From positions 1 through 64,000 of the IMG/VR virus record IMGVR_UViG_3300023109_000011: a stretch of 64,000 bases of DNA; one strand, given 5' to 3'. A model generated the notes under the pieces. The model was not told the DNA's origin and did no database searches. It saw only the letters and a program-made list of their open reading frames with translations. Every line of letters starts with the position of its first letter. Position 1 is the first letter of the stretch. This DNA is from a virus. A program made the translations under genes and the position numbers. Shown here piece by piece: positions 4,289-34,078 of the stretch.

Positions 4289-4334
4289 CACTTTTATGTA
4301 CCAATATGTGTCGACAGAATGCACTTTTATGTAC
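4289..4334. repeat. 13-base direct repeat upstream of the porin gene
   Basis: CACTTTTATGTAC occurs at 4289-4301 and again at 4322-4334, a 33-base period or about three DNA turns. Each copy is near an ACAGAAT motif (4314-4320 and 4355-4361). A regulator-binding site is possible but unproven. Confidence 0.45.
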
Positions 4335-4367
4335 ATATAAATGTAACATGTACACAGAATACACACA

Positions 4368-4396
4368 TAAAAAAAGGGAGCCCCGAAAGACTCCCT
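4368..4396 (-). terminator. intrinsic terminator after the capsid gene
   Basis: On the minus strand, AGGGAGTC pairs with GGCTCCCT around a short loop (4396-4375), followed by seven T (4375-4369). It lies about 45 bases beyond the stop of gene 23 and closes the head operon. Confidence 0.85.
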
Positions 4397-4439
4397 CAAA
4401 ACGTTGGTGGCTAAACCGCCACTCTTATTTTTATTTGGC

Positions 4440-5759
4440 TTAGAACAAGTTAGATACGATAACCTTGCGGTAGTACTTGTTAACACCAGCGTCAAGCCGA
4501 CCGAGTGCTGCTGAGTTACCAGAAGCAACGTGACCTTCAGCGAATGGGTTAGCAACCATGCCGTAACGAGTCTTGAACCCGATTTTTGGCTGGAAGCTGT
4601 TCTCGCCAACTGCACGAACCATTTGGAGCGGTACGTATGGGCAGTAGAAGAGACCTGCGTCGAATGCAGAAGAACCCTTGTATCCAACAACTAAGTAGTT
4701 AGAACCGGCGAATGGATCAACGTAAACGCGGAAGCGACCGTTGAGTACACCAGCGAAGGTGTTACCAGTATCATCAACATCCAAAGTGTTAGAGTTGAGA
4801 GCAGGAGCGTAGTCAAGAACACCAGCCATTTGCAATGCAGAAGCTACGTCTGAAGAACAAATAACGATGTTACCTTTACCACGACGAGTTCCCTTTGCAA
4901 TTGCGTTAGCTTCTTGCTCGATTTGGAACATCAAACCCTTGAACTTCTCTACTGACCAACGGCCGTTAGCATCAACGTCGAGGTCAAAAGTTCCTGGAGT
5001 AGCTGCACTAGCTGCACCAGCTTCAGCAGTCAAGTAGATAGTACGAACTACTTCACGGTTGATTTCAGTCAGGATCTCAGACTGAAGGATGTTAGCCAAC
5101 TCTGACTCAGCGTCAAGGCCGTGAACTGCACGGAGGTCTTGAGCCAATTCAGTAGTGTACTCAGCCTTCAGAGCGCGTGTCTTAGCTGAAACAGTTACTT
5201 TCTCGATAGAGAAGGCCATTTCTGCGTATCCAGCGCCAACACCATCACCAAGAGCTTCAGCAGCTCCGGTATCCAGACCAGTACCTGTAGTAGGTGACGC
5301 GTGTGGAAGTGTTTGAGCGTGAGTGCCTGTACCAGCGTGGCCAGTATCAGCTTCGTTGTAGAATGCTTCTGCACCAGCTTGGCTGTCATATCGAGCGCGC
5401 ATTGCGAAGATAAGGCCAGTTGGTCCAGTCATTGGCTGAACACCACAGATGTCATAAGCAATCATGTTTGGAACTGCACGACGTACCAATGAAATCAGTA
5501 CAGGATCGTAACCAGCAGTTGGACCAGCAGCAGTAGCTAGACCAGAGAAGCCGTCAGCGCCAGCAGCGTTAGTTGGTGATGCTTCTGAAAGAAGGCTTGT
5601 CATGTTAGCTGACAAGTCACCTTCCTGTTGAAGTGCTTTTTCTGTGTTCTCAAGAATAGTAGCAGTTACTGCTCTCTTATGCTTGTCTGTAATTGGTGAA
5701 AAAGAATCGTGACCTAAAATTGGCTCCCACTTTTCCACTAGTCTTTGATAGTTATCCAT
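4440..5759 (-). CDS. 23: major capsid protein gp23
   Basis: This 439-residue protein is the T4-type major head protein, which forms the hexamers of the icosahedral shell. The N-terminal prohead peptide ends with SLLSE (residues 55-59) before ASPTNAAG, matching the LxE-A cleavage site of the prohead protease. Cleavage after Glu59 would leave a 380-residue mature subunit. The conserved stretches MIAYDICGVQPMTGPTGLIF and MRARYDSQAG are typical of gp23. T4 gp23 is longer (521 residues), while marine relatives are commonly shorter. It is the last gene of the head operon, has an AAGGAG ribosome site and is followed by a strong terminator. A separate vertex protein (gp24) is not seen in the window. 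Confidence 0.97.
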   Translation of the reverse strand: MDNYQRLVEKWEPILGHDSFSPITDKHKRAVTATILENTEKALQQEGDLSANMTSLLSEASPTNAAGADGFSGLATAAGPTAGYDPVLISLVRRAVPNMIAYDICGVQPMTGPTGLIFAMRARYDSQAGAEAFYNEADTGHAGTGTHAQTLPHASPTTGTGLDTGAAEALGDGVGAGYAEMAFSIEKVTVSAKTRALKAEYTTELAQDLRAVHGLDAESELANILQSEILTEINREVVRTIYLTAEAGAASAATPGTFDLDVDANGRWSVEKFKGLMFQIEQEANAIAKGTRRGKGNIVICSSDVASALQMAGVLDYAPALNSNTLDVDDTGNTFAGVLNGRFRVYVDPFAGSNYLVVGYKGSSAFDAGLFYCPYVPLQMVRAVGENSFQPKIGFKTRYGMVANPFAEGHVASGNSAALGRLDAGVNKYYRKVIVSNLF

Positions 5760-5814: not shown

Positions 5815-6792
5815 TTAATTATTCTTTTTCGTGTTGAAAGCTTCAACCAGAGCATTAATAGAAGAGTAATCAGAAGCTGGTTTATTTACTTCCTGTTCTT
5901 CTAGAATAATTTCTTCTTCTTCGATTGCGTCTGCCTTAGGAGCAGTTGGAATACCTTCACCGAAGAATGATTCTTTGATAACCCGTAGGTTATTCGAGTA
6001 ATCTTCTAGATCTTGAACGTCAAGCTTTTCAGAAAGGACCTTAAAACGCTCTTTCTGATTTTCAGAAAGACCTTCAGTCATTCCTTCAAAAACTGATGCA
6101 GCGTTCATAGCTGAAATCTGTCGTTGAAGCTCAATGTTCTCATTTACAAGACTGTTACCTTGTTCTTCTAGATCAGAAACCTGTGCTTCGAGGCTTGATA
6201 CTGCATCGAAAGATTCCTCATCGATTTGGACGTTGTGCTCGCTGAATAGATCCTTAAGACCTGACATCAGAGACTCAGCCATTTCAACCTTGATACCGGC
6301 TTCAATAGCAATTGAATTCTCTTCCATCCACTCACCTACAACGTAGTCCAAGTACTTGTCGACATTCTCAACAACTTCACCCATACGAGTTTCAACAGAC
6401 TCTGCGAGCTGTGAATCAAGTTGAGATTGAAGTTCTTCGCTGAGAGATGCTGTTTTCTTAGCAACTTCTTCGTTAACTGCTGCTTCGAATACGAGAGTCA
6501 TTTTGTCTTTAAAGTCTTCAGAAAGATCCATACCTTCAAAGATGTCAGAGATAGAAGATTCAACTTCTACAACTTCTTCTACCATTTCTGCTTCTGAATC
6601 TACTTCCGCATCTTCAGCTGTAGGAACTCGCTTAGGGTTAGCGTCTTGGCCTGGAGTCTTTACAGAATCTCCTGCGCCTTTGCTATCTTCTTTCTTCTTC
6701 TTTTCGTGACTCTTGTCCTCGCCACCTTCCGGTGTTACAGGCTGAGGTACTTCTGAAATACCATCATCAGCTTTAAATTTGCCGTCTGCCAT
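5815..6792 (-). CDS. 22: prohead core scaffolding protein gp22
   Basis: A 325-residue, very acidic, largely coiled-coil protein in the position of T4 gene 22, between the protease and capsid genes. T4 gp22 is the main core scaffold around which gp23 assembles, and it is digested to peptides by gp21. The N-terminal 80 residues are low-complexity and charged, the middle is heptad-rich, and the C-terminus ends INALVEAFNTKKNN. LVE-A at residues 315-318 matches the protease site. A late promoter box (6845-6852) lies 53 bases upstream. Sequence conservation is weak, as is usual for scaffolds, so the call leans on position and composition. Confidence 0.88.
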   Translation of the reverse strand: MADGKFKADDGISEVPQPVTPEGGEDKSHEKKKKEDSKGAGDSVKTPGQDANPKRVPTAEDAEVDSEAEMVEEVVEVESSISDIFEGMDLSEDFKDKMTLVFEAAVNEEVAKKTASLSEELQSQLDSQLAESVETRMGEVVENVDKYLDYVVGEWMEENSIAIEAGIKVEMAESLMSGLKDLFSEHNVQIDEESFDAVSSLEAQVSDLEEQGNSLVNENIELQRQISAMNAASVFEGMTEGLSENQKERFKVLSEKLDVQDLEDYSNNLRVIKESFFGEGIPTAPKADAIEEEEIILEEQEVNKPASDYSSINALVEAFNTKKNN

Positions 6793-6844
6793 AATTATTC
6801 TCCTTTGAATGTATTTTAATACAAAATCTATTTAGACTGTAAAC

Positions 6845-6852
6845 TATTTATA
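6845..6852 (-). promoter_or_regulatory. T4-like late promoter box before gene 22
   Basis: An exact TATAAATA on the minus strand, 53 bases upstream of the gene 22 start, in the gap after gene 21. T4 late promoters consist of this -10 element, recognised by the phage sigma gp55 with no -35 box. Confidence 0.75.
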
Positions 6853-6857
6853 AAAAG

Positions 6858-7541
6858 TTAACTTCTTAAAGAACGAACGAATGCTTGGAACATTCTTCCT
6901 GCCGTTTCTTCATCAATTGTTCGCACTACACGAGTGATTTTCTTTTCGACTTCTTCTACAATTTCTTCAATAACCTGTGCAACTTCAGCAGGTCTCCAAG
7001 ATGCAGATGCGATATCGTAGTAATACTCTCTGTTTTCCATTATTCCGTTAACGAAAGCATTGGGAGCGGATGGATCGGTTACGATATCGACTGTTGCCAA
7101 ATGGAAATCCTTTTGAACTTCCATAACACCATTCTTCTCTTTAACTGATCCTAGACCTCTAGTTGAAACACCAATTTTGACTCCTTCATCAAGCAAACAC
7201 TTGACGATTTCACCCATTGGAGTACTTAAGATTTTGGCCTTCCCATAAAAGTCACTGCCTTCACGCCTCATGCCAGTAATCAAGTGAGATACTCGATCTC
7301 CGTTAATAGCCGGACCATCAGGATGGCCAAGCTCACCTAATGCTCGCTTAGGGTCAATGAATTCTTTTTGATACCGAGCCATCTCTTTATCGAGTGTTTC
7401 GGCGGGGTAAATACGTCCATTGCGATTCTTAACATCTCCTTGCATAAAGATGCCTTCGATAAAGTAGCTCTTCTTACCAGACTCTTCGTTGGCTTCTGTG
7501 ATTACTTCGCAACTTTCGTTAATTTCAGTAATTAGTTTCAT
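6858..7541 (-). CDS. 21: prohead core protease gp21
   Basis: A 227-residue serine protease of the herpesvirus-assemblin-like clan that cuts scaffold and capsid proteins during head maturation. The catalytic pair is visible: His73 in LGELGHPDG and Ser126 in VKIGVSTRGLG, in the order and context of T4 gp21 His85/Ser140. IVTDPSAPNAFV is also a conserved phrase. An ITE-A site at residues 14-17 fits autoprocessing at the N-terminus. It lies between the 504-residue head protein and gp22, as expected. A 7-of-8 late box lies 26 bases upstream. T4 gp21 is of similar size (212 residues). Confidence 0.96.
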   Translation of the reverse strand: MKLITEINESCEVITEANEESGKKSYFIEGIFMQGDVKNRNGRIYPAETLDKEMARYQKEFIDPKRALGELGHPDGPAINGDRVSHLITGMRREGSDFYGKAKILSTPMGEIVKCLLDEGVKIGVSTRGLGSVKEKNGVMEVQKDFHLATVDIVTDPSAPNAFVNGIMENREYYYDIASASWRPAEVAQVIEEIVEEVEKKITRVVRTIDEETAGRMFQAFVRSLRS

Positions 7542-15057: not shown

Positions 15058-15559
15058 CTTCACCCTTTATCATTTTAAGTAAGTCGGCAGTTGATACAAT
15101 TAGATTATTATTCGTAACCTGAGTTTCTGCTTGCTTTTCTTCTTTAGCATATCTTTTCTTTGTTGACATTTCAACATAATCTTTGTTAGCGTCAAGTAGT
15201 GTTTTCATTAAAGTGGATACAACTTCAAAGGCTCGAGGTGATTCTGACTGCTTTGCAATTTCCACCATTTCTTTAACCGAGTCATCTCCAAGTTGAATAA
15301 TATTCTCAATGTTTTTCTTAGCTAATTCGATATCCTTAAGGTTCTCATCAGCATTCTTTTCTGCTACGGTTGGGAGTTGAGGCTCAGCCACTTCAGCTGG
15401 AACCGGCAGGTTTTCAGCTGCAGCTGGAACCGGCAGGTTTTCAGCAGGTTTTATTTCTTCTTGATTAAAAGAATTGGCAGGAAGGGAAATCTTCATATCT
15501 TCTCTCGCATCTTCCAAGGGTCTCATACTTAATAACTCTGCTATTTTATCATCACTCAT
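15050..15559 (-). CDS. 16: terminase small subunit gp16
   Basis: A 169-residue protein placed directly before gp17, as in T4 (gp16: 164 residues). The start is set at ATG 15559, with AGGAG eight bases upstream, rather than the GTG at 15568. The last 85 residues are predicted helical and contain IELAKKNIENIIQLGDDSV and STKKRYAKEEKQ, resembling the oligomerising helices of small terminases. A Pro-rich linker at about residues 40-60 carries a nine-residue tandem repeat, ENLPVPAAA and ENLPVPAEV. Its start overlaps the upstream cytidylyltransferase stop in an ATGA junction. Confidence 0.85.
   Translation of the reverse strand: MSDDKIAELLSMRPLEDAREDMKISLPANSFNQEEIKPAENLPVPAAAENLPVPAEVAEPQLPTVAEKNADENLKDIELAKKNIENIIQLGDDSVKEMVEIAKQSESPRAFEVVSTLMKTLLDANKDYVEMSTKKRYAKEEKQAETQVTNNNLIVSTADLLKMIKGEDE
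15394..15445 (-). repeat. 27-base tandem duplication inside gene 16
   Basis: A 25-base match, beginning CAGCTGGAACCGGCAGG, occurs at 15394-15418 and at 15421-15445. The 27-base period encodes two copies of a nine-residue Pro-rich unit in the small terminase linker. Confidence 0.85.
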
Positions 15560-15969
15560 TTCAAGCACTCCTGTACACGCTTTCTCAAATCACTACTGCT
15601 AAAACGATGACCTCTTTGATTAAAGTATAGATCAATGTCTCTCATACGACAAATATCTTTCCCAGTAAAATCTTTATCGCGATACTCTTCGCCTAATATT
15701 CTTACATGAATTGTATATAATTCAAGTATGTCTTCTAAATCTTTTTCAGTTGAGTATGGAATGATCTCATCTACATAACTCACTGCTTTTAGTTGTGTAT
15801 ATCTTTCTACTATTGTTTGAGCAGGAGAGTTTTTGTTACTCCTATCAAGACCAGGATCCATTTGCAATCCTACCATCAAATAATCACATTGAGCTTTTGC
15901 ATCTCTTAACATTTGTACATGGCCTGCATGCAGCAAATCAAATGCGCTACAGGTAAATCCAACCTTCAT
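15556..15969 (-). CDS. glycerol-3-phosphate cytidylyltransferase-like nucleotidyltransferase
   Basis: A 137-residue protein of the HxGH nucleotidyltransferase superfamily. HAGH at residues 15-18 is the CTP-binding signature, and RFSSSDLRKRV near the C-terminus matches the second signature (RxxSTS-type) of TagD-like enzymes. Its length is that of a stand-alone cytidylyltransferase, which activates glycerol-3-phosphate or a related phosphate with CTP. It sits between genes 15 and 16, where T4 carries gene 3. Substrates cannot be inferred. It could supply activated head groups for surface glycans or act with the sugar-related genes at 28-31 kb. ATGA coupling to gene 16 puts it in the late operon. 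Confidence 0.85.
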   Translation of the reverse strand: MKVGFTCSAFDLLHAGHVQMLRDAKAQCDYLMVGLQMDPGLDRSNKNSPAQTIVERYTQLKAVSYVDEIIPYSTEKDLEDILELYTIHVRILGEEYRDKDFTGKDICRMRDIDLYFNQRGHRFSSSDLRKRVQECLK

Positions 15970-19040: not shown

Positions 19041-22000
19041 CTATGATCTCTTGATTTCGTAGTAAACTGTACTACCATTCTTATCTGTTATACTATCCAT
19101 TGCCTGCTCTGGAGTATATGTGTAGCCGCCTGTTGTATAGCTAGTGCTGTTGCCCATGGTTGTTAAAGTTACGCCGTCCCAAACATACGAGAAACCGCCG
19201 CCCGATGGAGCGACACAATAGAAGTTAGGCTGAATCACCCAGTTGTACATGGTGTCTTTTGCAGTATCTGCAATGGTGCCAGAGTTAGTAGCAACAATTG
19301 TACCGCTCGTGCTTCCTGTTCGTACATTAATAGTATAAGAATCTGTACCTTCAGTGATGAAGTCTCGAGTTGCTCTTACACTAATTATTCCTACGTTACT
19401 ATTGACAGTAAAGCTACCGGATGTAGTATCAAACTCTGCTGTAGGTGTAATGTTCCAGTACAGCGTTGTTCCATTAGGCACGTTCGTAGTTGATACTGTG
19501 ATGTCTTCATCCTGAGCCGTGCCACCTGAACCTTGCTCGTCTAATGCGGGACCTGCTACGGAGTAAGTCGCAGCAGGTGTAGTAGATGTATCATTAATTG
19601 TAAATGTATCAGTAGCAACAATTGAACCAGCTTGGCTGCCTGTTCTTAAATTTACAGTAGCTGTTTCAGATCCTTCGGTCGTAGTGTCAGCGGTAGGCGT
19701 TGCTGTAAAACTTGCTACTCCTTCTCCACTATTTGCATCGATTGAAATAGTAACACTGCCGGTACCAGTAGCAAAATCTGCTGGTGTGTCACCAGTACTA
19801 ACTGACCAATATAATGTCGTTCCACCGGCAACCCCGGCAGTTGTGATGTTAAACGTACCAGCTGAACCTTCGTTAATAGAAGTTGGAGCAGCTATAATGT
19901 AAACCGCAGGAGGTGTAGTAGATGTATCATTAACATTAAATGTATCAGTAGCAACAATTGTACCGCTCGTGCTTCCTGTTCTTATTTCGACTTGTGCGGT
20001 TTCAGTTCCCTCAGTTGTAAGGTCAGCGGTAGGCGTTGCTGTAAACGAACCTGCATTTGAGTTAACAGTAAACGAGCCTGATGGATAAGTGCCACCGAAG
20101 TCAGCCGCTTGTGTTGTTCCGCCTGAAGGTACTCCGTTAAGCGTGTAGTATAGAGTTGTGCCGTTCGAAACATTTTGAGTTGTGACGTTAAACGTACCAG
20201 CTGAGCCTTCGTTAATAGAAGTCGGAGCAGCAACTGTGTATGTTGGTGAAGCTGTTTGCGAAGTATCATTAATTGTAACAGATGCAGAAGTTGCATTCTC
20301 GCCGGCGCCACCCTGTGGAACAGTCCATGTTACTGTTACAGTAAATGTCTCAGCACCTTCGGTTGTGGCATCTGCAACAGGTGTAACAGTAAATGTTCCT
20401 GCATTAGATGATGTATCGAATGCACCGGTTGTCGCGGCGAAATCTGCATTAGATGATGTAACATTATTAATCGTCCATGTTAACGTCTGACCATCAGGTA
20501 TACCTGTTGTTGCTACGGTAAATGTAAGAGCACTTCCTTCATTAATGTTATTAGCAGCAGGTGTTACACTATCAATCGACGCAGTAAGTGATGTATCGAG
20601 AATGTCGAATGTGTCGGTAGCAACAACAGGTCCGCTAGTACTTCCTGTTCGAATAGAAATAGTACCGCCTTCAGTTCCCTCTGTCGTAGCATCTGCGTCA
20701 GCGGTTAGAGTAAATGTTCCTGCGTTTGCACTAATAGTAAATGAACCAGTCTCGTTGGTAAAGTCAGAAGTAGGTGTAGCTGACCAATATAAAGTCGTAC
20801 CATTTGCTACGTTAGTTGTAGTAACATTAAACGCTGCAGATTGGGTTCCTTCACTAATGTTAGCCGGTGCGACAACTGCATAAGACGGTCCAGGTGTTTG
20901 CGAAGTATCTTTAACAACAAACGTATCAGTTGCTACAGTTGTACCTGATGTACTTGTTATTTTAATATTGATTGTAGAAGTCTCGTCACCTTCCGTGGTT
21001 TGATCAGCGTTTGGTGTTACAGTAAACGTTGCAGAGTTCGAGTTAACTGTAAAGTTACCAGAGCTCGCTGCAAAGTCGGACGCATTTGGTGTGATCGTCC
21101 AGTAAAGTGTCGTTCCATTAGCAAGGTTAGTTGTAGTTACAGTCATAGTGCCAGCGGAACCTTCATTAATTTCCGTAGGTGCAACAACCGTATAAGTCGG
21201 TGCAACTGACGTGTCATTAATATCGAATGTGTCAGTAGCAACAACTGTACCTGCTGTACTTCCAGTTCTTAGTGATATCGTTCCTGTTTCGGTTCCCTCT
21301 GTCGTATTATCAGCAGTCGGTGTTGCTGTAAACGAACCTGCATTTGAGTTAACAGTAACACTGCCGGATGCTGTTGCAAAATCAGCGGATGGCTCTATTG
21401 TCCAATATAATGTCGTTCCATTGGCAACCCCGCCAGTTGTGATGTTAAACGTACCAGCTGAACCTTCGTCAATATCATTAGGAGCAGTTATAGCGTAAGA
21501 CGCGCCAATAGAGACGTCTCCAATAACAAAGGTATCATTTGCAACCTCAGTACCTACAACCGATCCAGTTCGTATCGAAACAGTTGCAGTTTCAGACCCT
21601 TCCGTAGTTGCGTCGGCGGTTGGTGTAAGAGTAAATGAGCCCGCATTGCTATTGATTGTAAAGCTGCCAGAAGATGAATTAAAGTCACCAGCTGGAATAA
21701 CACTATAATACAAAGTCGTTCCATTAGCAACGTTGGTTGTGGTTACTGTCATAGTACCAGCCGAGCCTTCGTTCACAGTCGTTGGAGCTACAACGCTGTA
21801 AGTGGCAACCGGTGTAGTAGAAGTATCTTTAATTGTAAATGTTGTAGTATCAACAATTGTACCAGCTTGGCTACCAGTTCTTAAAGTTATGGTAGCAGTC
21901 TCATCACCTTCGGTTGTAGCATCTGCCGTGGGTAATACGGAGAATGATCCTGCATTACTGTTAATAGTAATGGTTCCGGAACTAGTAGCAAAATCTGCTG

Positions 22001-23471
22001 GTGTGTCACCAGTACTAACTTGCCAATATAAAGTTGTACCGTTAGCGACATTAGTAGTTGCTACGTTAACTGTGCCGGATGAACCTTCATTAATTTGTGA
22101 TGGAGCAGAAAGAGTATAAGTTGGAGATGTCGAAGTATCATTAATGATAAATGTATCAGTCGCAACAACTGTACCACCGACACTACCAGTCCGTATTTTA
22201 ATCGTTCCAGTTTCTTGACCTTCTGTTAAAGTGTCTGCAGTAGGTGTTACTGTAAATGATGCAGAGTTACTGTTGATTGTAAAGCTACCAGAGCTTGTTG
22301 CGAAGTCATTTGAATCTGATAAAGTATAATAAAGCGTAGTGCTATTAGCAACATTAGTAGTTGTTACCTGCATGGTTCCAGCAGAACCTTCGTCAATATC
22401 AGTAGGTGCGACAACTGCATAAGTAGGTGATGCTGGATCTACAACTTCTAATTGAGCAGAAGTCCTAGTTACGGCGGTACCACTTACTGTACCAGATACC
22501 GTGATCGCGAAAAATTCTGATCCTTCAACAACACCGTCTGAAGTAGGATCAACAATAAATGTTCCTGCATTACTGTTAATAGTAACTGTTCCAGTGGTAT
22601 TATTAAAGTCAGCAGCGGAGGTTGTATTATCAACAATTGCCCAGTTCAATACAGTACCATTAGGAATATTTGATGTTGATACATTAATTGTTCGCGATGC
22701 ACCTTCTACGAGTTGAGCAGGTGTCCCACTTAAAGAAACAGCATCAACAGTCGGTATAACATTCGAAGTATCATTAATTCTTACATACCCAGAGGTAGCA
22801 CTGCTACTGTTTGGAGCATAATTGGCTAAAGCTCTAAAATCTTCAGGTCCTTCAGTTGCACTATCGGCTAAAACTGGAACAGAAAAAGTTCCTGCATTAT
22901 TATTAATTGTAAACACGCCAGAAGTACTAGTAAAGTCAGCAGCGGCAGCAGCCGGATTTGCATTCCCTCCAATCACCACAGCCCACCCTAATGAAGTACC
23001 ATTAGGTATGTTAGTAGTTGCAACAGTAAAAGTAGCAGAATTGCCTTCATCCACATCAGTAGGACCGGTGACACTATCAACGGTCCCAGTTATTAAATCT
23101 TGGAAAGTAACTGTTGAAGAAGTCTTTGATATGAAAACTGAGTTAACGACTCCTGATACTGTTACTTGCTTAGTTTCATCTCCTTCAACAACACCGTCTG
23201 CAACTGCAGTATATGTAAATGTTCCTGTGTTACTGTTAATAGTAACTGTTCCAGAATCAGGGGTAGTATCAGGATCATTTGAAACGGTGGTTGACCAATT
23301 TAAAGATGTACCATTAGGAATGTTTGTAGTAGATACAGTCCAAGTAATTACATTTCCTTCTTGAACAGGATTAGGACTGGCCGTAACCGTGTTTATCGAC
23401 GCAGCCGGAATCGTCCCAATTGAATGAGAACCATTGAAACCTAAAAGTGATTTTAACGAAGGAGTCGCCAT
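19041..23471 (-). CDS. large Calx-beta-like repeat protein, probable virion adhesin
   Basis: A 1476-residue protein built from about 13 tandem repeats of roughly 100 residues, counted by eye. Each has a core such as INEGSAGTMTVTTTN, then NGTTLYW, FTINSNAGSFT, TTEGXE and VATDTFXINDTS (X varies). The acidic DEGS and TEG positions resemble Calx-beta domains, which bind calcium and often occur in surface adhesins. The N-terminus lacks a signal peptide, consistent with a virion protein rather than a secreted host protein. The last 65 residues, from about TMYNWVIQPNFYC, form a distinct tip. Long exact DNA matches between repeats indicate recent recombination. It is likely part of a tail fibre or head decoration. 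Confidence 0.8.
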   Translation of the reverse strand: MATPSLKSLLGFNGSHSIGTIPAASINTVTASPNPVQEGNVITWTVSTTNIPNGTSLNWSTTVSNDPDTTPDSGTVTINSNTGTFTYTAVADGVVEGDETKQVTVSGVVNSVFISKTSSTVTFQDLITGTVDSVTGPTDVDEGNSATFTVATTNIPNGTSLGWAVVIGGNANPAAAAADFTSTSGVFTINNNAGTFSVPVLADSATEGPEDFRALANYAPNSSSATSGYVRINDTSNVIPTVDAVSLSGTPAQLVEGASRTINVSTSNIPNGTVLNWAIVDNTTSAADFNNTTGTVTINSNAGTFIVDPTSDGVVEGSEFFAITVSGTVSGTAVTRTSAQLEVVDPASPTYAVVAPTDIDEGSAGTMQVTTTNVANSTTLYYTLSDSNDFATSSGSFTINSNSASFTVTPTADTLTEGQETGTIKIRTGSVGGTVVATDTFIINDTSTSPTYTLSAPSQINEGSSGTVNVATTNVANGTTLYWQVSTGDTPADFATSSGTITINSNAGSFSVLPTADATTEGDETATITLRTGSQAGTIVDTTTFTIKDTSTTPVATYSVVAPTTVNEGSAGTMTVTTTNVANGTTLYYSVIPAGDFNSSSGSFTINSNAGSFTLTPTADATTEGSETATVSIRTGSVVGTEVANDTFVIGDVSIGASYAITAPNDIDEGSAGTFNITTGGVANGTTLYWTIEPSADFATASGSVTVNSNAGSFTATPTADNTTEGTETGTISLRTGSTAGTVVATDTFDINDTSVAPTYTVVAPTEINEGSAGTMTVTTTNLANGTTLYWTITPNASDFAASSGNFTVNSNSATFTVTPNADQTTEGDETSTINIKITSTSGTTVATDTFVVKDTSQTPGPSYAVVAPANISEGTQSAAFNVTTTNVANGTTLYWSATPTSDFTNETGSFTISANAGTFTLTADADATTEGTEGGTISIRTGSTSGPVVATDTFDILDTSLTASIDSVTPAANNINEGSALTFTVATTGIPDGQTLTWTINNVTSSNADFAATTGAFDTSSNAGTFTVTPVADATTEGAETFTVTVTWTVPQGGAGENATSASVTINDTSQTASPTYTVAAPTSINEGSAGTFNVTTQNVSNGTTLYYTLNGVPSGGTTQAADFGGTYPSGSFTVNSNAGSFTATPTADLTTEGTETAQVEIRTGSTSGTIVATDTFNVNDTSTTPPAVYIIAAPTSINEGSAGTFNITTAGVAGGTTLYWSVSTGDTPADFATGTGSVTISIDANSGEGVASFTATPTADTTTEGSETATVNLRTGSQAGSIVATDTFTINDTSTTPAATYSVAGPALDEQGSGGTAQDEDITVSTTNVPNGTTLYWNITPTAEFDTTSGSFTVNSNVGIISVRATRDFITEGTDSYTINVRTGSTSGTIVATNSGTIADTAKDTMYNWVIQPNFYCVAPSGGGFSYVWDGVTLTTMGNSTSYTTGGYTYTPEQAMDSITDKNGSTVYYEIKRS

Positions 23472-23482
23472 TTATTATCTCT

Positions 23483-24958
23483 TTACTTGTTGTGTACTAC
23501 ATAACCATTTACTATATATGTATCGTTCCCTTGATCACTTTCAGAATCAGGGCCTTCAACGTCTACAGAGTAAATGTTACATTGGCTATACGTTTCATTT
23601 ATCGAAGTTATTGCTTCTTCGTAATAAGAATTCGTAATGAAATTATATTTGATTAGTCTATCGCCTATTTCAATTTTTGTTATATTTAACTCGGGCTGTT
23701 GACCTTGACCTGCTTCAGCATTAATACATTTCCATCCGTCGGTTGTTAAGAAAGGATGCGAGTCAGTAACAAAAGGTGTTTCAGCGTTAAAACCGTAGAG
23801 ATTATATCTACCTGTGCGCCTTCTAAAATCTAAAATCTTATTTTCTACATCATCATTTCCAATTGCTATTTCATCGGATTGAACATCAGATATTTCGTTA
23901 GTGATTTGCTGTGCTTTCCATCCGTGATAAGCTTCTTCCATAGCTACTAACTTAACATTATCTCCGTTTTTAAGAGCAATTTTAGACTCACCAGTAAAAC
24001 ACGACCCAGTTGATGTAGCAGTGGCCTGAGCCGTTATTCTAAACGTAGCTAGTGCTGTGTCGTCATATCCAGTAGCACGACCCCAAAGCGTAAACGAGTG
24101 ACCAACATTTGTCGTGGATTGATTACCACCACCGCCGGTAGCGGTAGCGATTCCACTACTTCCATAAACTGTCCAGCCAGTATGAGCGTTGCTTCCAGTT
24201 TTCCAGCCTGTGTCATTTAATGTAGGATTAGAAAGTGGACCATAAACAATCCTAACACCGGTTAGTGCTCCTGCGCTTACGAAACCTGCATAATCACCAG
24301 TAAATGCAATATAGGTGCCGCTACTAAGATAGTGAGTCGTATCACCGGTACCGCCGTAAAAATCGCCAGTGCCTATATCGGTGAGAGCGTCCGTATCCCA
24401 GCGAAGATATATTCTAGCTTCAGAGTTTGCTGCGCCGAAAGCGTCAAAGTTAACGGAGTCACTGTCTACCGCGACAAAGCCAATGGCAGGAGTATCATCC
24501 GCATTAAATGTTCCTGCAGGTATAGGGTTACCTGATGCTACAGGATCATCATATCCGAAATAAGAAGCTCGCAAATCAACACCTGACGTAGGAACACGAG
24601 CAGTACCTACTACCGTGATAAGCCAATATCTATGACTATTCCAAGTTGGCTCACCTGCAATAGGCCAGTATAAAGGACCTGTTTCCCTTTCATCAAATGC
24701 AGGATCATAAGCGTTCGAAGTTGTATCAAGTATGATATTAGTAATAGTACCGACACCATAGTTTGTAAACGTGTATGGATAGTTATTAGAACCCATAGTA
24801 ATTTTAACGAAAGAATGATCACAGTCAATACTGCCTTGGCCTGCACCTAGAGTTTGAATGTTAGCTTCGAGATCGAAGTGACGACCTTCCATATCGGCGA
24901 AGTTGATCAGATCACCGTTGTTTGCTATTAACTCTTGACCACCTACTTTAATTGCCAT
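23483..24958 (-). CDS. virion-type protein with C-terminal Hint (hedgehog/intein) domain
   Basis: A 491-residue protein in three parts. Residues 1-135 belong to a module shared with four neighbouring genes (GEPTWNSHRYWLITV). Residues 136-318 are beta-rich and Gly-rich, with a domain shared with the gene at 25828 (YGPLSNPTLNDTGWK). Residues 319-491 look like a Hint domain: Cys320 in GSCFTGESKIAL, a block-B-like TDSH at 398-401, and a C-terminal VVHNK with His489-Asn490. Hint domains rearrange the peptide bond before the first Cys, causing cleavage or ligation. No C-extein follows, so intein splicing is unlikely. Self-cleavage or covalent attachment is the more plausible outcome. Neither activity can be shown from sequence. 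Confidence 0.75.
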   Translation of the reverse strand: MAIKVGGQELIANNGDLINFADMEGRHFDLEANIQTLGAGQGSIDCDHSFVKITMGSNNYPYTFTNYGVGTITNIILDTTSNAYDPAFDERETGPLYWPIAGEPTWNSHRYWLITVVGTARVPTSGVDLRASYFGYDDPVASGNPIPAGTFNADDTPAIGFVAVDSDSVNFDAFGAANSEARIYLRWDTDALTDIGTGDFYGGTGDTTHYLSSGTYIAFTGDYAGFVSAGALTGVRIVYGPLSNPTLNDTGWKTGSNAHTGWTVYGSSGIATATGGGGNQSTTNVGHSFTLWGRATGYDDTALATFRITAQATATSTGSCFTGESKIALKNGDNVKLVAMEEAYHGWKAQQITNEISDVQSDEIAIGNDDVENKILDFRRRTGRYNLYGFNAETPFVTDSHPFLTTDGWKCINAEAGQGQQPELNITKIEIGDRLIKYNFITNSYYEEAITSINETYSQCNIYSVDVEGPDSESDQGNDTYIVNGYVVHNK

Positions 24959-24969
24959 TAGTTTACCCT

Positions 24970-25377
24970 TTAATCTTGATCATCATAAGGAACAGCAGTT
25001 CCTCGTACTACAACTGGAGTTGTTTTATCTGTGTTGTTGAAACAAAGCAACCATATTTTATGGCTTCCCCAATATGGCTCATTAGAATCAGGCCATTGAA
25101 CATTACTAAACGACGGAGTAAATGCACTAGTGTTAGTATAGATCATTACATGAATTACTGCACCTTTAGTACTACTTAAATTTCCAAAACTAAAAGCGGT
25201 ATTACCAGTTAAAGTATACATGTGCATTGGAGTTGTGCAATCAATCGTTTTAGTTCCAGTGACTGCGGTGTCAGTACTATAATTAGCTCGTAACTTTGTA
25301 TACGTACCAGCGACGTAATCTACATCGATATCTCGAGTATCGCTTACTACTTCAGTTCCATTTATACTCAAAGCCAT
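24970..25377 (-). CDS. small virion-type protein, paralogue in the adhesin cassette
   Basis: A 135-residue protein equivalent to the N-terminal module of the Hint protein gene next to it. The shared pattern is an N-terminal hydrophobic turn, a central Thr/Ala-rich beta region, FTPSFSNVQWPD, then EPYWGSHKIWLL and a final GTAVPYDD. It has no signal peptide. The four relatives lie at 23483, 25383, 27126 and 28029. The size and beta-rich composition suggest a structural fibre or tip protein. The precise role is unknown. Confidence 0.7.
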   Translation of the reverse strand: MALSINGTEVVSDTRDIDVDYVAGTYTKLRANYSTDTAVTGTKTIDCTTPMHMYTLTGNTAFSFGNLSSTKGAVIHVMIYTNTSAFTPSFSNVQWPDSNEPYWGSHKIWLLCFNNTDKTTPVVVRGTAVPYDDQD

Positions 25378-25382
25378 TTTGT

Positions 25383-25787
25383 TTATCCTGTCGTAGTAGG
25401 TTGAGCAGATGCTATTACTAAAGCACCATCAATACACTGCATACCAATTTCCCAAAAACTTGAGCTGCTCCAATTTGGCTCAGAACCATTTGCCCATAAA
25501 ATGTTACTTGAGAATGTCGGTGTATACGTGTTTGTTCGTAGTCCAAATATTGTAGCCCGACCTGCATTTTTATTACTTTCGTTAAACGTTAAATTTTGCG
25601 ACATTGAAATACTTTGCCAAGGATTGTAAAAATTAAGAGTAGCGGTCGCTCCACTTAAAGACATTGTGGAAACGTCGTTTGGACACAAATCACTATAGTT
25701 TCCAAAGCCATCGGTCATATTTACAAGTGAACCGTTCGGCGAAGAACTATCGTATATTTTAGATACTCCTGCTTGTTTGTATGCCAT
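25383..25787 (-). CDS. small virion-type protein, paralogue in the adhesin cassette
   Basis: A 134-residue member of the same five-gene family. It has the NGSLVNMTDGFGNYSDLCPN start region, the central YTPTFSSNILWANGSEPNWS and the Trp in SFWEIGMQC. It differs from its neighbours in lacking the final GYD motif and in having two cysteines. The gap to the upstream gene is 40 bases and includes an imperfect late box (AATAAATA, 25806-25813), which may lie too close to the start to be used. Its function is unknown beyond a likely structural role. Confidence 0.7.
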   Translation of the reverse strand: MAYKQAGVSKIYDSSSPNGSLVNMTDGFGNYSDLCPNDVSTMSLSGATATLNFYNPWQSISMSQNLTFNESNKNAGRATIFGLRTNTYTPTFSSNILWANGSEPNWSSSSFWEIGMQCIDGALVIASAQPTTTG

Positions 25788-25827: not shown

Positions 25828-27126
25828 TCACAAAACGCTTCTCTGACCAGCAGCATAAGCTTCACATGTTATAATAAATGTCACTACTCTTGTTGGCGCA
25901 TATAAGCCTTCTTCTTTCGCCCAACATTCTACTACATATTTACCACTATCAAATTCATCTGCCGCAACATCTGCTTCTGCTTGTCCAACTAATGTCACTT
26001 GAATGCCATCTTCAGCGTTTGGTGTTGCAACCCATCCGGTATCAGTCCTGGCTGTGTTACCATACCTTCCGTATATTAGTTTGACGTGAGATGGTTCAGA
26101 AGAACTAATGTTACCGTATAATACTTGATCCCCGCTATCACCTGCGGATACTGATAAAGGTTGTGGAATGTTTTGTGAATTATTATACCAAAATGCTGTT
26201 GTGTCTGCTCGAACCGCGTTACCAAAAACCTGCAATTGTTTTCTAGCTTCGCCTCCCTCGCCTGGCGCAGGATTGTAAAATACAGCTTTAATTTTTATTC
26301 TACACTCTGCTCGAGCTATAACAGTTTCGCCTGCTGTAGATTCAGCATCGCTTCGAAGCTTTATCGCGATGTCGGAAGCAGTACGATCGGTCTGGCCTGG
26401 AAATTGAAACCACCTAGCAATTGCAATTCCATTACGAAAATCTTGTAATCCTGAAGGATCACTGACTGTAATAGGTGAGCTTGACTGTGTTACACTTGTG
26501 CTGTCTACTGTTGCAGAACAACGTATTGTAAATTCCTCATCCCCTTCTGTAACTGAGTCATTATTTGATTGAATAATAAATGATGCTGTGCCATTACCAC
26601 CTGCTTGTACGAATTCTCTAACAGTGTACAAATCGTTTCCGTCAGAATCGGTAGAGCCGGTAGCGGTCCCTAAATAATAGTTAGTTAGTCCTAGTTTATA
26701 GTTTGTTATCGGTGGATAATTTGGTGAATAACCTAGTCCTTCTGTGCCCTCGGCACCGGCTAAAGTTCCAAAGAATTGAAATGTATAAAGATTGTATATT
26801 GGATCGCTCTCAAAAATAGATACTGTTGCCCCATCAATGTCTTGATAACTTGATGAAATTGCACCTGCATTAATATCAACAGTACCTGAAGCTACTGACC
26901 AATCAGCAGAAGCAACTTGATTTGAAGAATTTCTTACTTCCCAACTAAGCTCAGTAGTGCCGTCTGGAAAGCCTGAAGTGGTAACACTAACTACCGTTTG
27001 ATTACCTTCTGTTAATGTAAAGTCATCAGGAACAACGGACACGATTTGAGCACCGCCACCGCCGCCACCGCCACCCATAGAATTCATTATGGCGCCAATT
27101 GCTGAGTATGTATGTGGAACACTCAT
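25828..27126 (-). CDS. virion-type protein with poly-Gly linker and an interrupted Calx-beta-like repeat
   Basis: Start chosen at ATG 27126, in a TAATG junction with the upstream stop and ten bases after GGGAGG. An ATG three codons earlier touches the ribosome site. The product is 432 residues. A run of eight Gly near residue 20 follows a short N-terminal piece. Residues about 30-230 form one Calx-beta-like unit (LTEGNQTVVSVTTSGFPDGT, then SVTEGDEEFTIRC), split by an insertion of about 80 residues. The C-terminal part contains VKLIYGRYGNTARTDTGW, a domain shared with the Hint protein. Parts from different neighbours are thus combined in one chain. A surface adhesin or fibre tip is likely. Confidence 0.7.
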   Translation of the reverse strand: MSVPHTYSAIGAIMNSMGGGGGGGGAQIVSVVPDDFTLTEGNQTVVSVTTSGFPDGTTELSWEVRNSSNQVASADWSVASGTVDINAGAISSSYQDIDGATVSIFESDPIYNLYTFQFFGTLAGAEGTEGLGYSPNYPPITNYKLGLTNYYLGTATGSTDSDGNDLYTVREFVQAGGNGTASFIIQSNNDSVTEGDEEFTIRCSATVDSTSVTQSSSPITVSDPSGLQDFRNGIAIARWFQFPGQTDRTASDIAIKLRSDAESTAGETVIARAECRIKIKAVFYNPAPGEGGEARKQLQVFGNAVRADTTAFWYNNSQNIPQPLSVSAGDSGDQVLYGNISSSEPSHVKLIYGRYGNTARTDTGWVATPNAEDGIQVTLVGQAEADVAADEFDSGKYVVECWAKEEGLYAPTRVVTFIITCEAYAAGQRSVL

Positions 27127-28016
27127 TAGGTCCATCCCTCCCAAGATATTACATAATATCCTGTTTCAATAATATTAGTACCATTAGCATCAGTAGCAAT
27201 ATCAAACTTCATTTTCATATTTCGAAAACCGTATGCTGGGGCACCTTGCCCGCCCATAGGGCCGACATACCTTTCGTATCTTCCAAAATCTCGGTTGGTT
27301 GTTAAAGGCCACCAAGATCCTAATGCCGGTCCACCACCTGTGTTTACAGTTCCATAGTTTACGTTTACTTCATATTGGTTGCCAGTAGTATGTTGAGTGG
27401 CGCGTATGTAATATGTTTGACTAGGTGTAATATTACACCACTCAGCAAAAGGTTCAGGACTTGAACCTGTGGGTGGTCCTATGAAATATATTCGTTGAAT
27501 TTTTCCTTGAGGAGTAAACCTAAGCCTATGAGTACAGTACCATGCATCTCCACCCCATTGTGGCATCGGCCATAAACTGTTAGTGTCTTGTGGTACTGAT
27601 GCTGTACCTGCTAAAGAAACAACCTCAGTAGGAGCAACATATGTTGAAGTATATCCTAAAGCGCTCGCTCTTACTTCGCTATTATTTACAGCCTGCATAG
27701 TAATTTGCCAATGTCTGTAATCTCCCCAAGAAGGTGTACCTCCGGTGAATGTAACTACATTTGGAAAATTAGGCGTGTGAGTGTCGGATGAAGTGTCTAA
27801 CAGAAAAAGAGCGCATTTGCCGGTTGCTAAATTAGCTGGAGTAAAAGTTCGATCTTGCGTCATATTATGATACATGCAAGGCTTTTCAAAATCCATTATA
27901 CCTGTAATTTCTTCAGGCTTTGGCTGAAAATTATCGTACTGCCCATAACCACCCGTAACGTTAATTAAAGATGATGAATCGTTAATGACTGGATTCGAGC
28001 CTACATCTACTGACAT
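27126..28016 (-). CDS. virion-type protein, paralogue with an extra C-terminal domain
   Basis: A 296-residue protein. Residues 1-125 are the shared cassette module (SSLINVTGGYGQYDNFQPKP, LLDTSSDTHTPNFPNVVTF, SWGDYRHWQITM, RASALGYTS). Residues 126-296 are a unique beta-rich domain with Trp and Gly and end in YYVISWEGWT. It closely follows the paralogue at 28029 and overlaps the next start by one base. The extra domain may be a receptor- or ligand-binding tip, which is inference from the modular pattern. Confidence 0.7.
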   Translation of the reverse strand: MSVDVGSNPVINDSSSLINVTGGYGQYDNFQPKPEEITGIMDFEKPCMYHNMTQDRTFTPANLATGKCALFLLDTSSDTHTPNFPNVVTFTGGTPSWGDYRHWQITMQAVNNSEVRASALGYTSTYVAPTEVVSLAGTASVPQDTNSLWPMPQWGGDAWYCTHRLRFTPQGKIQRIYFIGPPTGSSPEPFAEWCNITPSQTYYIRATQHTTGNQYEVNVNYGTVNTGGGPALGSWWPLTTNRDFGRYERYVGPMGGQGAPAYGFRNMKMKFDIATDANGTNIIETGYYVISWEGWT

Positions 28017-28028
28017 TTTGTAAGCTCC

Positions 28029-28418
28029 TTAAGCGTCGTAACCTGTGGCAGCAGCTCTTATGGTTGATGCATCCCAAGCAACCAAGGCAACATTCCAATA
28101 CCTATGATCACCCCATACTGGCTGAGAATCGTCTGGCCATTTTACATTTGAAGAAAAAACTGGAGTGTGGCTTGAAGCTGAAGTGTCGAGAGCTACTATA
28201 GTAGTGTGTCCACCAACAAGATCGGTAGCATTAAATGTAGCTCCTGCCGTAAGTGTAACATTATATAAAGCTTTGTTCATGCTAATAGTGGTAGCACCAC
28301 TTGCATTTAAAGCAGTAGCATTTGGATGAAAGCCGTCGTAGTTACCAGAAGCACCTGTTATATTAGAGAGCTCTCGATCATTAGTAATGACTTCATTACT
28401 TCCGACATAAATTCCCAT
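28029..28418 (-). CDS. small virion-type protein, first paralogue of the adhesin cassette
   Basis: A 129-residue protein that looks like the minimal form of the family: GSNEVITNDRELSNITGASG, NYDGFHPN, a central beta region, ALDTSASSHTPVFSSNVKWP, PVWGDHRYWNVAL and a final IRAAATGYDA. It is closest to the N-terminal part of the neighbouring 296-residue protein, which fits a tandem duplication. An exact late promoter box 38 bases upstream suggests the whole cassette (28418 to 19041) is expressed as a late unit. Confidence 0.72.
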   Translation of the reverse strand: MGIYVGSNEVITNDRELSNITGASGNYDGFHPNATALNASGATTISMNKALYNVTLTAGATFNATDLVGGHTTIVALDTSASSHTPVFSSNVKWPDDSQPVWGDHRYWNVALVAWDASTIRAAATGYDA

Positions 28419-28463: not shown

Positions 28464-29225
28464 CTAATCCCGTCGTTCGATGTCTTCTTCTGATAACTCG
28501 TCGCCTAGCCATACTTCAATAACTTTGGCAGGTTCTTCGCCTACATTGGTTGCTTTATGCCAAACACCAATTGGAATATCAATGCTTTGGCCTGCCCAAT
28601 AAATGCGAGACTCTTTTCGTTTGGTGGTTTCACCATAGTCGAGCTCCATTAAAATAGCACCTGATACTACATGCCAGTGCTCAGACCTTTTAAAATGTCG
28701 TTGATCGCTAAGTGATCTACCAACATCAAAGCTTAATTCTTTAACAGCCCATGTACAATTTGAATCAAGTACTTTATATGTACCCCATTTGCGTTGAGTC
28801 GTAGGTTGAGCCCATTCTTTTAATATCCAACTACTTGAATTCTTTTTATCTTCACCACCTACTCCGAATGCAAATTCAACATCTTCGAATATCATTTCTG
28901 GAATGTTTTCTTTAGTCCTATCACCACCATTAGCAAATACAATTACTTCGTTTTGATACTTTTCTTTTACTTGACGAATAGCATCAATAGCTGAGTCATC
29001 TGAATCATCAAACGCTATTACCTCATCTACACATGTCATTGCACTTAATATTGCAGCTCTTTCTGACCAAGGCATAAACTCTCTACCCTTTTTACGTCTA
29101 AGCCATTCGTCTGAGTTTACACCGACAACTAAACGAGTACCTTCCAGAGAAGCGTTTTGCAAGTAGGCAATATGTCCACTGTGTATTGGATCAAAGCCTC
29201 CTGTTACAATTACGGTTATCATCAT
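28464..29225 (-). CDS. bifunctional nucleotidyltransferase-cupin protein
   Basis: A 253-residue fusion. Residues 1-130 are an HxGH nucleotidyltransferase (GGFDPIHSGHIAYLQ, HSGH at 15-18; VVGVNSDEW) like those that activate sugar phosphates or polyol phosphates. Residues about 135-250 form a cupin resembling the phosphomannose isomerase type II or GDP-mannose enzyme C-terminal domain (SEHWHVVSGAILMEL, PIGVWHKATNVG). The metal-binding His residues expected in a cupin are present. The start overlaps the preceding gene in an ATGATG junction. The substrate is unknown. It probably makes or edits an activated sugar, together with the neighbouring methyltransferase and glycosidase-like genes. Confidence 0.8.
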   Translation of the reverse strand: MMITVIVTGGFDPIHSGHIAYLQNASLEGTRLVVGVNSDEWLRRKKGREFMPWSERAAILSAMTCVDEVIAFDDSDDSAIDAIRQVKEKYQNEVIVFANGGDRTKENIPEMIFEDVEFAFGVGGEDKKNSSSWILKEWAQPTTQRKWGTYKVLDSNCTWAVKELSFDVGRSLSDQRHFKRSEHWHVVSGAILMELDYGETTKRKESRIYWAGQSIDIPIGVWHKATNVGEEPAKVIEVWLGDELSEEDIERRD

Positions 29226-32418: not shown

Positions 32419-32604
32419 CTATTTATTAAAAAAAGACTGTTCATCTACATCATGCTTACCAATTGGGCATGTGTTTCCTTTTAGTCTCGCTTTGAGAGTC
32501 ATAATACATTTGCAGACATTGCATTGCCTAAGCTTTGCATTGTACTTTTCACAACTCTCGCATATCTCGATTTTGCGCTGGTATGTTTTTCTATCGACTA
32601 ACAT
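32419..32604 (-). CDS. small zinc-ribbon protein
   Basis: A 61-residue protein with a four-plus-one Cys pattern, CESCEKYNAKLRQCNVCKCI, and a final TCPIGKH. This is the pattern of a small zinc-ribbon family I recall from many phages, in which the segment ends CPIGKW. The start is set at ATG 32604, matching the usual family beginning before a Tyr/Arg-rich helix, although no strong ribosome site is visible. Longer in-frame starts exist at 32619 and 32673. It overlaps the end of the halogenase gene by 14 bases, so translation is probably coupled. Its role is unknown. Confidence 0.7.
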   Translation of the reverse strand: MLVDRKTYQRKIEICESCEKYNAKLRQCNVCKCIMTLKARLKGNTCPIGKHDVDEQSFFNK

Positions 32605-34078
32605 TGGCGCTATAATCATTTTCAAGCAATGCTTGTTGAACAAAGATATGCTTATTTTCTTTGTCGGTATCAAACTGCTTAGCGCAGTGTTCTTTGTTGA
32701 ATGTCATACTATCATACACATCTTTATATATGTCAGATGGTAGCATTCGTATTCCTTGCATCACCTGATACCAAGATGAAGCATTGAAAAAGCGATCAAT
32801 AATGTCAGCAGCACCTAGAGGATACTTAGACCATTTTGCTAAATCTTTTTGTAAACCAGGAGGTGCTTTTTCTACTGAGAATTTATTCCAAAACTCAGTG
32901 TCATTGCGTTCCGTTATATAGTGCAAGTAAACAAAATTATGAATCTCTTTTGAAATATCATTCCACTTTTCGTTAAACTGATCTCGATAAGTATCGTCTA
33001 AGTCAAGTAATAGATTAGGCATAATGATCGACTCAACAATTGACATTGAAGTTGAGAATATCGATGTAGCTTCAAGTGGTTCAATAAATCCAGCAGAAAG
33101 TCCTAATGCAATACAGTTACCTATCCAAGCTTTTTCGTAATAGCCTGATTCAAATTTAAAAACAGTGTCTGGTATTTTAGCGTTAGGAAATTTTTCAAGT
33201 ATTTCCTTTCGAACTTCTTCATCAGAAATAAAGCTGCTATCAAAAGTATATCCACACCCATAACGTTCTTGAGTAGGAATAACCCAGCACCATCCATATT
33301 TCATTGCTATTGATTCTGTATAAGGAGGTAATACATCTTCTTCATGTGGTATAATAAATGGTATTGCACGATCTACGGTTTTATAATCGTTAAAGTCAAT
33401 CCACTTGGGATTCAATTTAGAGATAATAGTTTTTCGAAATCCTGTACAATCATATACTATATCACATTCGTACTCATGATTTTTAGATAATAACTTTTGT
33501 ACTATATCACCATCGAGTACTACATCTTCAATAATATCATCAACTATTTTAATACCACGAGCACCACCTTGTTCTCTTAGAAAGGATGCTAGCATTTTAG
33601 CGTCAAAATGTAATGCAAAAGGTTCGACAATTTCTAAAGCATCATTCTGCATCATAAAAGGATTCTTACGATCTTTACACATCATATACTGTAATGTTGA
33701 TTCAGCAATATGCTCGTCTCGTTTGATTGATTCAAGTATTCGAATAGGAACATAGCTTTGTCTTATATTCGAAGGATGATCATGTAAGTCAGCATTGGAA
33801 TGAAAGATGTGATAATAATCTTCGCCATCACCGTTCCAGTTATCAAAACGAATCGCATGTTTTGTAGTAGCACTACAGAATCTTACTAGAGCCATATAAT
33901 CGATTTGAATCATATCTAATATATCGAGAATGTTAGGTACTGTTCCTTCACCTGCTCCTAACACACCTATTGCTGAGCTTTCAATTACTGTAACTTGACA
34001 ATCAGGTATATATCTTTCAGCAAAGAGTGCTGCAAGCCAACCGGCTGTGCCACCACCCACAATCACAACATTTTTCAT
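32591..34078 (-). CDS. flavin-dependent tryptophan-halogenase-family enzyme
   Basis: A 495-residue protein with the features of the PrnA/RebH family. These are the FAD-binding motif GGGTAGW (8-14), the WxWxIP motif WCWVIP (263-268), the Lys73 equivalent of the catalytic Lys79 of PrnA in TTKHAIRF, and a PLEATS segment with Glu336 at the place of PrnA Glu346. These enzymes use FADH2, oxygen and halide to make hypohalous acid, held near Lys, which halogenates an aromatic ring. A related cyanophage enzyme (VirX1) has been described as a viral halogenase with iodide preference. It overlaps the upstream gene in an ATGA junction. The substrate is unknown: free Trp, a small molecule or a protein residue. 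Confidence 0.9.
   Translation of the reverse strand: MKNVVIVGGGTAGWLAALFAERYIPDCQVTVIESSAIGVLGAGEGTVPNILDILDMIQIDYMALVRFCSATTKHAIRFDNWNGDGEDYYHIFHSNADLHDHPSNIRQSYVPIRILESIKRDEHIAESTLQYMMCKDRKNPFMMQNDALEIVEPFALHFDAKMLASFLREQGGARGIKIVDDIIEDVVLDGDIVQKLLSKNHEYECDIVYDCTGFRKTIISKLNPKWIDFNDYKTVDRAIPFIIPHEEDVLPPYTESIAMKYGWCWVIPTQERYGCGYTFDSSFISDEEVRKEILEKFPNAKIPDTVFKFESGYYEKAWIGNCIALGLSAGFIEPLEATSIFSTSMSIVESIIMPNLLLDLDDTYRDQFNEKWNDISKEIHNFVYLHYITERNDTEFWNKFSVEKAPPGLQKDLAKWSKYPLGAADIIDRFFNASSWYQVMQGIRMLPSDIYKDVYDSMTFNKEHCAKQFDTDKENKHIFVQQALLENDYSANVSR

Follow-up and report, generated by a model that had tools for sequence, protein, structure and literature searches.

A tail-type protein of a marine T4-like phage ends in what, judged by sequence and structural model, is a real Hint domain with all of its catalytic residues intact. 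The domain comprises the 172 C-terminal residues (320-491) of a 491-aa open reading frame (ORF) in the window, the 64-kb stretch of DNA analysed here, which belongs to a 98-kb virus record. It is most like an A-type bacterial intein-like (BIL) domain, rather than a Hog domain or an intein, and we predict, with moderate confidence, that it is an active domain of this kind that removes itself from an otherwise complete protein. The gene and its parts are located as follows.

23483..24958, minus strand: ORF of 491 aa, consisting of module A, module B and the Hint domain
24539..24958, minus strand: module A, residues 1-140, common to neighbouring genes (blastp E 1e-14 to 2e-8)
24002..24526, minus strand: Ig-like beta module B, residues 145-319 (HMM); Hint-less paralogs stop at its end
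23483..24001, minus strand: Hint domain, Cys320-Lys491 plus stop codon
23999..24001, minus strand: Cys320, block A nucleophile, invariant in alignment A4; N-terminal cleavage is predicted before it (Ser319/Cys320)
23756..23767, minus strand: block B, T398-D-S-H401 (TxxH), with His invariant and Thr/Ser conserved
23486..23494, minus strand: block G His489-Asn490 and +1 Lys491, then stop; found in 27/27 distinct homologs

The first-pass annotation of this DNA had placed a Hint domain at the end of a virion-type protein and had proposed profile searches and structure prediction as checks; both support that assignment. As a single sequence, the 491-aa protein gave no Hint match above threshold in Pfam or PHROGs, a PDB search with it returned chance matches only, and NCBIfam intein_Nterm aligned over its full length from Cys320, yet fell below its own cutoff (E 0.0056). 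Taken alone, the Pfam and PHROGs blanks would have resembled a refutation of Hint identity. Profiles built from relatives were positive. Family alignments (A3 and A4) were seeded from a homolog at locus L002 (71% identical) together with a block-G-end pattern. Homologs with the same ending match Intein_splicing (8.2e-7), Vint (2.3e-7), Hom_end_hint (1.2e-12) and PT-HINT (1.4e-7) in Pfam, members of the family also match Pfam Hint, and the family profile retrieves the Ssp DnaB intein (2.1e-7, the best PDB sequence-profile match) and the C. thermocellum BIL (5.5e-4) from the PDB. Another profile, made from 56 sequences of other lineages (gpI, DUF4815 arrays, bacterial and other Hints) with the protein's own lineage excluded, finds the ORF at E 3.5e-28 in a six-frame search of the window. 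That search revealed no second Hint in the 64 kb, and no close copy was found in the remainder of the 98-kb record.

The Hint was modelled with AlphaFold2 on A4 at a pLDDT of 91.5. Compared with solved structures, this model gave VIA Z scores of 16.9 for the T. thermophila BIL2 (6y75), 16.8 for the M. tuberculosis RecA intein, 15.7 for the Ssp DnaB intein, 15.3 for the Hog domain 1at0 and 13.9 for the C. thermocellum BIL (2lwy), with many inteins scoring about 12-17. The full-length model was of low confidence (pLDDT 68.4), and the folds of modules A and B are not nameable from it. With its Hint fold, Cys at position 1 and block B TxxH, the domain carries the features of the HINT superfamily. 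The motifs lie where the first-pass annotation had read them: Cys320 is preceded by Gly318-Ser319, the block-B His of TDSH (398-401) is 81 residues beyond Cys320, and 23483-24001 runs exactly from Cys320 to the stop. The ORF ends V-V-H489-N490-K491-stop, so that the claim that no extein follows the Asn was nearly right; one residue, Lys491, does follow. Canonical splicing is indeed unlikely, as no Cys, Ser or Thr stands at +1.

By sequence comparison, conservation within the protein is highest in the Hint. Against the L016 homolog, from the same contig as L002, residues 1-144 are 55% identical, residues 145-319 43% and residues 320-491 71%. An alignment of 23 sequences, with identities reaching down to about 30%, shows no change at Cys1, the block-B His, a Gly-Asp pair, His-Asn or the +1 Lys, and all 27 complete distinct relatives collected with a search bait that lacked the C-terminus retain Cys1, the block-B His, His-Asn and Lys. 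Among 26 distinct ends, the codons vary synonymously (CAT/CAC, AAT/AAC, AAG/AAA and the stops TAA/TAG/TGA), which indicates that the constraint acts on the protein; by this sequence measure, the Hint is under purifying selection. Class 1 inteins carry Asp at block F position 4. In the family alignment and the PDB profile matches this position is not Asp, and cleavage efficiency may therefore be low.

The gene lies among structural genes. The large terminase of the phage shares 59% identity with its counterpart in Sinorhizobium phages phiN3/phiM12, and genes for a head-tail adaptor, head closure, tail sheath stabiliser, terminase and tail sheath lie downstream of the Hint gene on the same strand. 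Its immediate neighbours are listed below.

19041..23471, minus strand: large fibre-type repeat protein of 1476 aa, separated from the Hint gene by 11 nt
24970..25377, minus strand: module A paralog without Hint, 135 aa (blastp)
25383..25787, minus strand: module A paralog without Hint, 134 aa (blastp)
25828..27144, minus strand: Hint-less module B paralog, 438 aa (module-B HMM E 2.3e-15, matched to profile position 173/175 near the protein end)
27126..28016, minus strand: module A paralog without Hint, 296 aa (blastp)
28029..28418, minus strand: module A paralog without Hint, 129 aa (blastp)

Module A of the Hint protein thus recurs in four small upstream genes (blastp E 1e-14 to 2e-8). The C-terminus of the 438-aa paralog falls within a few residues of the Hint junction, as do the C-termini of Hint-less paralogs in L002 and L020. 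We conclude that the Hint has been appended to a protein complete in itself, and that a cut at Cys320 would leave a natural end. On the basis of synteny, paralogy and fold matches, the 491-aa protein is tail-type, in agreement with the virion-type role first ascribed to it. A tblastn search of 50,697 phage records with the Hint, the full protein and one module A paralog (129 aa) gave no match. We also considered read-through of the stop codon into the next gene and rejected it, since the intergenic gap (11 nt here, 5-24 nt in other loci) keeps no constant reading frame.

Several other features of this region were recorded. The 1476-aa protein (19041-23471) is built from numerous degenerate repeats, each about 100 aa long (xxAPTxVNEGSAGT...), and its length varies between relatives. 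The same phage encodes, at 57546-63035, an 1829-aa collagen-repeat fibre that terminates in a Peptidase_S74 chaperone, a C-terminal domain known to cleave itself. Two nucleotidyltransferase-type genes and a tryptophan halogenase lie in the structural region (15556-15969, 28464-29225 and 32591-34078); one of the former corresponds to a heptose adenylyltransferase PHROG, and the second also matches a cysteine dioxygenase PHROG through an additional domain.

To place the domain among known classes, we compared it with each in turn. A-type BILs carry out Cys1 thioester formation and cleavage at Asn, with cuts at both ends; they can also join their flanks without a +1 nucleophile, the freed amine attacking the thioester, although cleavage dominates (Amitai 2003, Dassa 2004 and Aranko 2013, as summarised in PMC4031507). 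With the A-type BIL of C. thermocellum (2lwy) the phage domain shares the Hint fold, Cys1, TxxH and C-terminal His-Asn (here His489-Asn490), the absence of a Cys, Ser or Thr at +1 (here Lys491), and placement in variable, non-conserved proteins. It differs in that the phage Hints sit on tail or virion proteins, nearly always have Lys at +1 and have relatives in direct tandem arrays; in the 491-aa ORF, moreover, only one residue lies beyond the Asn. B-type BILs lack an intein-like block G, whereas His-Asn is present and invariant here, and PT-HINT proteins have a toxin domain after the Hint, whereas this protein has nothing past it. The closest solved fold is that of the T. thermophila BIL2 from the BUBL1 polyubiquitin-like locus (6y75, 6tmm), with an rmsd of 2.0 over 133 residues. 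That domain is eukaryotic, lies between ubiquitin-like domains and has about 20% identity to the phage Hint. The closest predicted viral structures are BFVD A0A6J5KSY2 and A0A6J5M6E1 (E 7.9e-10 and 7.2e-8), both from uncultured Caudovirales and known only by the annotation 'Hint domain containing protein'.

The first-pass annotation had suggested a hedgehog-like transfer of the protein C-terminus to a sugar or lipid. The Hog domain does have in common with the phage domain its fold, its C-terminal position and the expected N-terminal thioester chemistry, and heptose adenylyltransferase-like and tryptophan halogenase-like genes are nearby. However, the protein ends one residue past the Hint and has no sterol- or adduct-recognition region, and its His-Asn, invariant here but dispensable in Hog and B-type BIL domains, speaks for A-type BIL chemistry instead; we regard such a transfer as very improbable. 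The domain could also be the decaying remnant of an ordinary intein, since inteins are common in phage genes and are among the profile matches; blocks A, B, F and G are shared with class 1 inteins of the Ssp DnaB type. Unlike these, the Hint lacks an endonuclease, a C-extein gene half with Cys, Ser or Thr at +1 (Lys491 is followed by the stop) and a conserved enzyme insertion site, being appended after a complete module. Strong conservation, the same ending in many lineages and fusion to complete proteins likewise speak against decay, which we consider scarcely credible.

Viral relatives were collected with search A3, which used block B and block F patterns only and returned 43 loci, the weakest last few of which are other Hints or inteins. 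All complete family members found in this way end in HNK-stop except L051, in which HNK-GGGG runs on into lambda gpJ. The Hint resides on module A/B proteins of T4-like phages (L016-L036), on a large protein beside tail-sheath genes (L037), with Calx-like repeats beside terminase (L039), and at the C-terminus of lambda gpI-type tail assembly proteins (PHROG 32, E 6e-39) that end in HNK-stop with gpJ directly next (L040-L049). One cassette (L024) holds two separate HNK-stop Hint proteins (4317-5408 and 5824-7221). An HNK-GGG search yielded 53 contigs, every one with Hint ORFs and many gpJ-like; in gpJ-like proteins (L051, L097, L101, L103-L105, L109, L111, L113, L122, L124, L126, L127, L129, L133, L138, L142 and L145) the Hint occupies the extreme N-terminus, in many cases after Met-Cys only, and is followed by HN-KGGGG and then gpJ. 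Judged by these sequences, the Hint module is widespread in uncultivated phages, and its host proteins are tail-type and of many unrelated families. Family-Hint matches in terminase, helicase and tape-measure genes were set aside as true inteins, having Cys, Ser or Thr at +1 and a matching C-extein.

A search for VHNK-CF junctions uncovered direct tandem arrays in which two Hints are separated by Lys alone. On phage tail or virion proteins, arrays of 2 to 6 full Hints, mostly joined as ...VHN-K-CF..., were seen in L088, L070, L081, L083, L092, L091/L053, L080, L087 and L071; L088 (7328-12841, minus strand) has up to six full units and one partial, and L070, L081 and L092 have four each. In L070, L076, L080, L083, L087, L092 and L134, Hint arrays directly precede the (D)PLAQTF motif of DUF4815-type virion proteins (Pfam DUF4815 in L087, E 4e-59); L081 also has a DPIAQTF sequence without a preceding Hint. 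In some arrays the last unit is degenerate and has lost His-Asn. In the isolated podophage Providencia phage PSTNGR1, a short tail-type protein (L059, 3563-4516) bears a C-terminal Hint whose block G has degenerated to LVSS, so that a silent Hint could be studied there in culture. These losses suggest that some phage Hints may be structural only, and incomplete Hints persist on fibres. It is nevertheless improbable, in our judgement, that the present Hint remains on the virion without cutting and has a purely structural or binding function, for which four distinct catalytic positions would not be expected to stay invariant among divergent relatives.

Counts of the +1 residue from HNK-stop-, VHNK-CF- and HNK-GGG-type patterns are biased by the Lys in the bait; A3 and a search with block A only are free of this bias. 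The latter gave 67 distinct phage units with His-Asn, in which the +1 residue is Lys in 47, Arg in 9, Cys in 2 and another in 9. Lys or Arg thus occupies +1 in 56 of the 67, compared with a K+R background of 7% in the proteins of the family, a contrast that is not a simple probability because the units are related. At the level of sequence, phage Hints of the Cys...His-Asn-Lys kind clearly have, as a rule, a basic residue at +1, where inteins have Cys, Ser or Thr.

This preference bears on the main rival to self-removal, in which the Cys320 thioester would be passed to an amine of a neighbouring fibre subunit, or to Lys491 of another copy, to form an isopeptide cross-link in the tail. BIL2, the best structural match, is reported to form a lysine isopeptide bond, its N-terminal ubiquitin-like domain being conjugated to other proteins without ATP (PMC8616854); by analogy, lysine conjugation is a candidate activity of the phage Hint. 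The excess of Lys and Arg at +1 would fit this, as would the fibre- or tail-type gene found immediately downstream of the HNK-stop gene in most related loci. The same gene order would be just as likely in any tail operon, however, and the Lys between two Hints of an array can act in cis only. We hold such conjugation to be possible, though rather unlikely.

Self-removal is favoured by the invariant catalytic residues, the position of the Hint as the most conserved part of the protein, the synonymous codon variation, the fold matches to BILs and the paralogs that end at the junction. With the fold, the position and the invariant residues observed, we infer the following steps, their order and the fate of the Hint. 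The Hint would fold inside the infected cell, and Cys320, helped by Thr398 and His401, would attack the Ser319-Cys320 bond in an N-S acyl shift, leaving residues 1-319 held as a thioester. Asn490 would then cyclise with the assistance of His489, freeing Lys491, and attack on the thioester by water or by the Lys491 amine would give a protein ending in Ser319 or Ser319-Lys and a discarded Hint. The benefit would perhaps lie in the timing of assembly, or in a fold-assisting tail that is later removed.

Simple N-terminal cleavage does not explain why His-Asn is kept with one residue beyond it. The invariance of His-Asn-Lys at such an end, together with the retention of Cys1 after Met-Cys only in gpJ-like proteins, favours more than simple cleavage, and a complete cycle (splicing between very short flanks, or transfer onto an amine) would make sense of both puzzles. 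In the gpJ-like proteins, Asn cyclisation would expose a Lys-Gly-rich N-terminus. More speculatively, and with considerable doubt, tailed phages might use a dedicated Cys...His-Asn-Lys Hint as a general post-translational tool for tails, in which the +1 Lys would be the acceptor of the Cys1 thioester and lysine-ended or isopeptide-linked tail parts would result; with tandem arrays, a single chain could then be cut or joined several times over.

The Hint fold, its chemistry and phage 'Hint domain containing protein' database entries were already known, and to that extent the domain is not undescribed, as had been suggested; what appears to be new is the Cys...His-Asn-Lys class on virion-type proteins. 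In the open-access literature we found no description of Hint modules on virion proteins, of the +1 lysine, of the invariant C-terminal form or of the tandem arrays. Phage proteins bearing such Hints may be misannotated as inteins or toxins. If the domain is active, many uncultivated phages would cut or join tail parts by intein-like chemistry, a form of virion maturation for which we found no description, and this would explain mismatches between gene lengths and mature tail proteins. Such activity would also provide new natural cleavage and ligation tools with a +1 Lys, and would make the long-standing question of BIL function directly testable on the virion.
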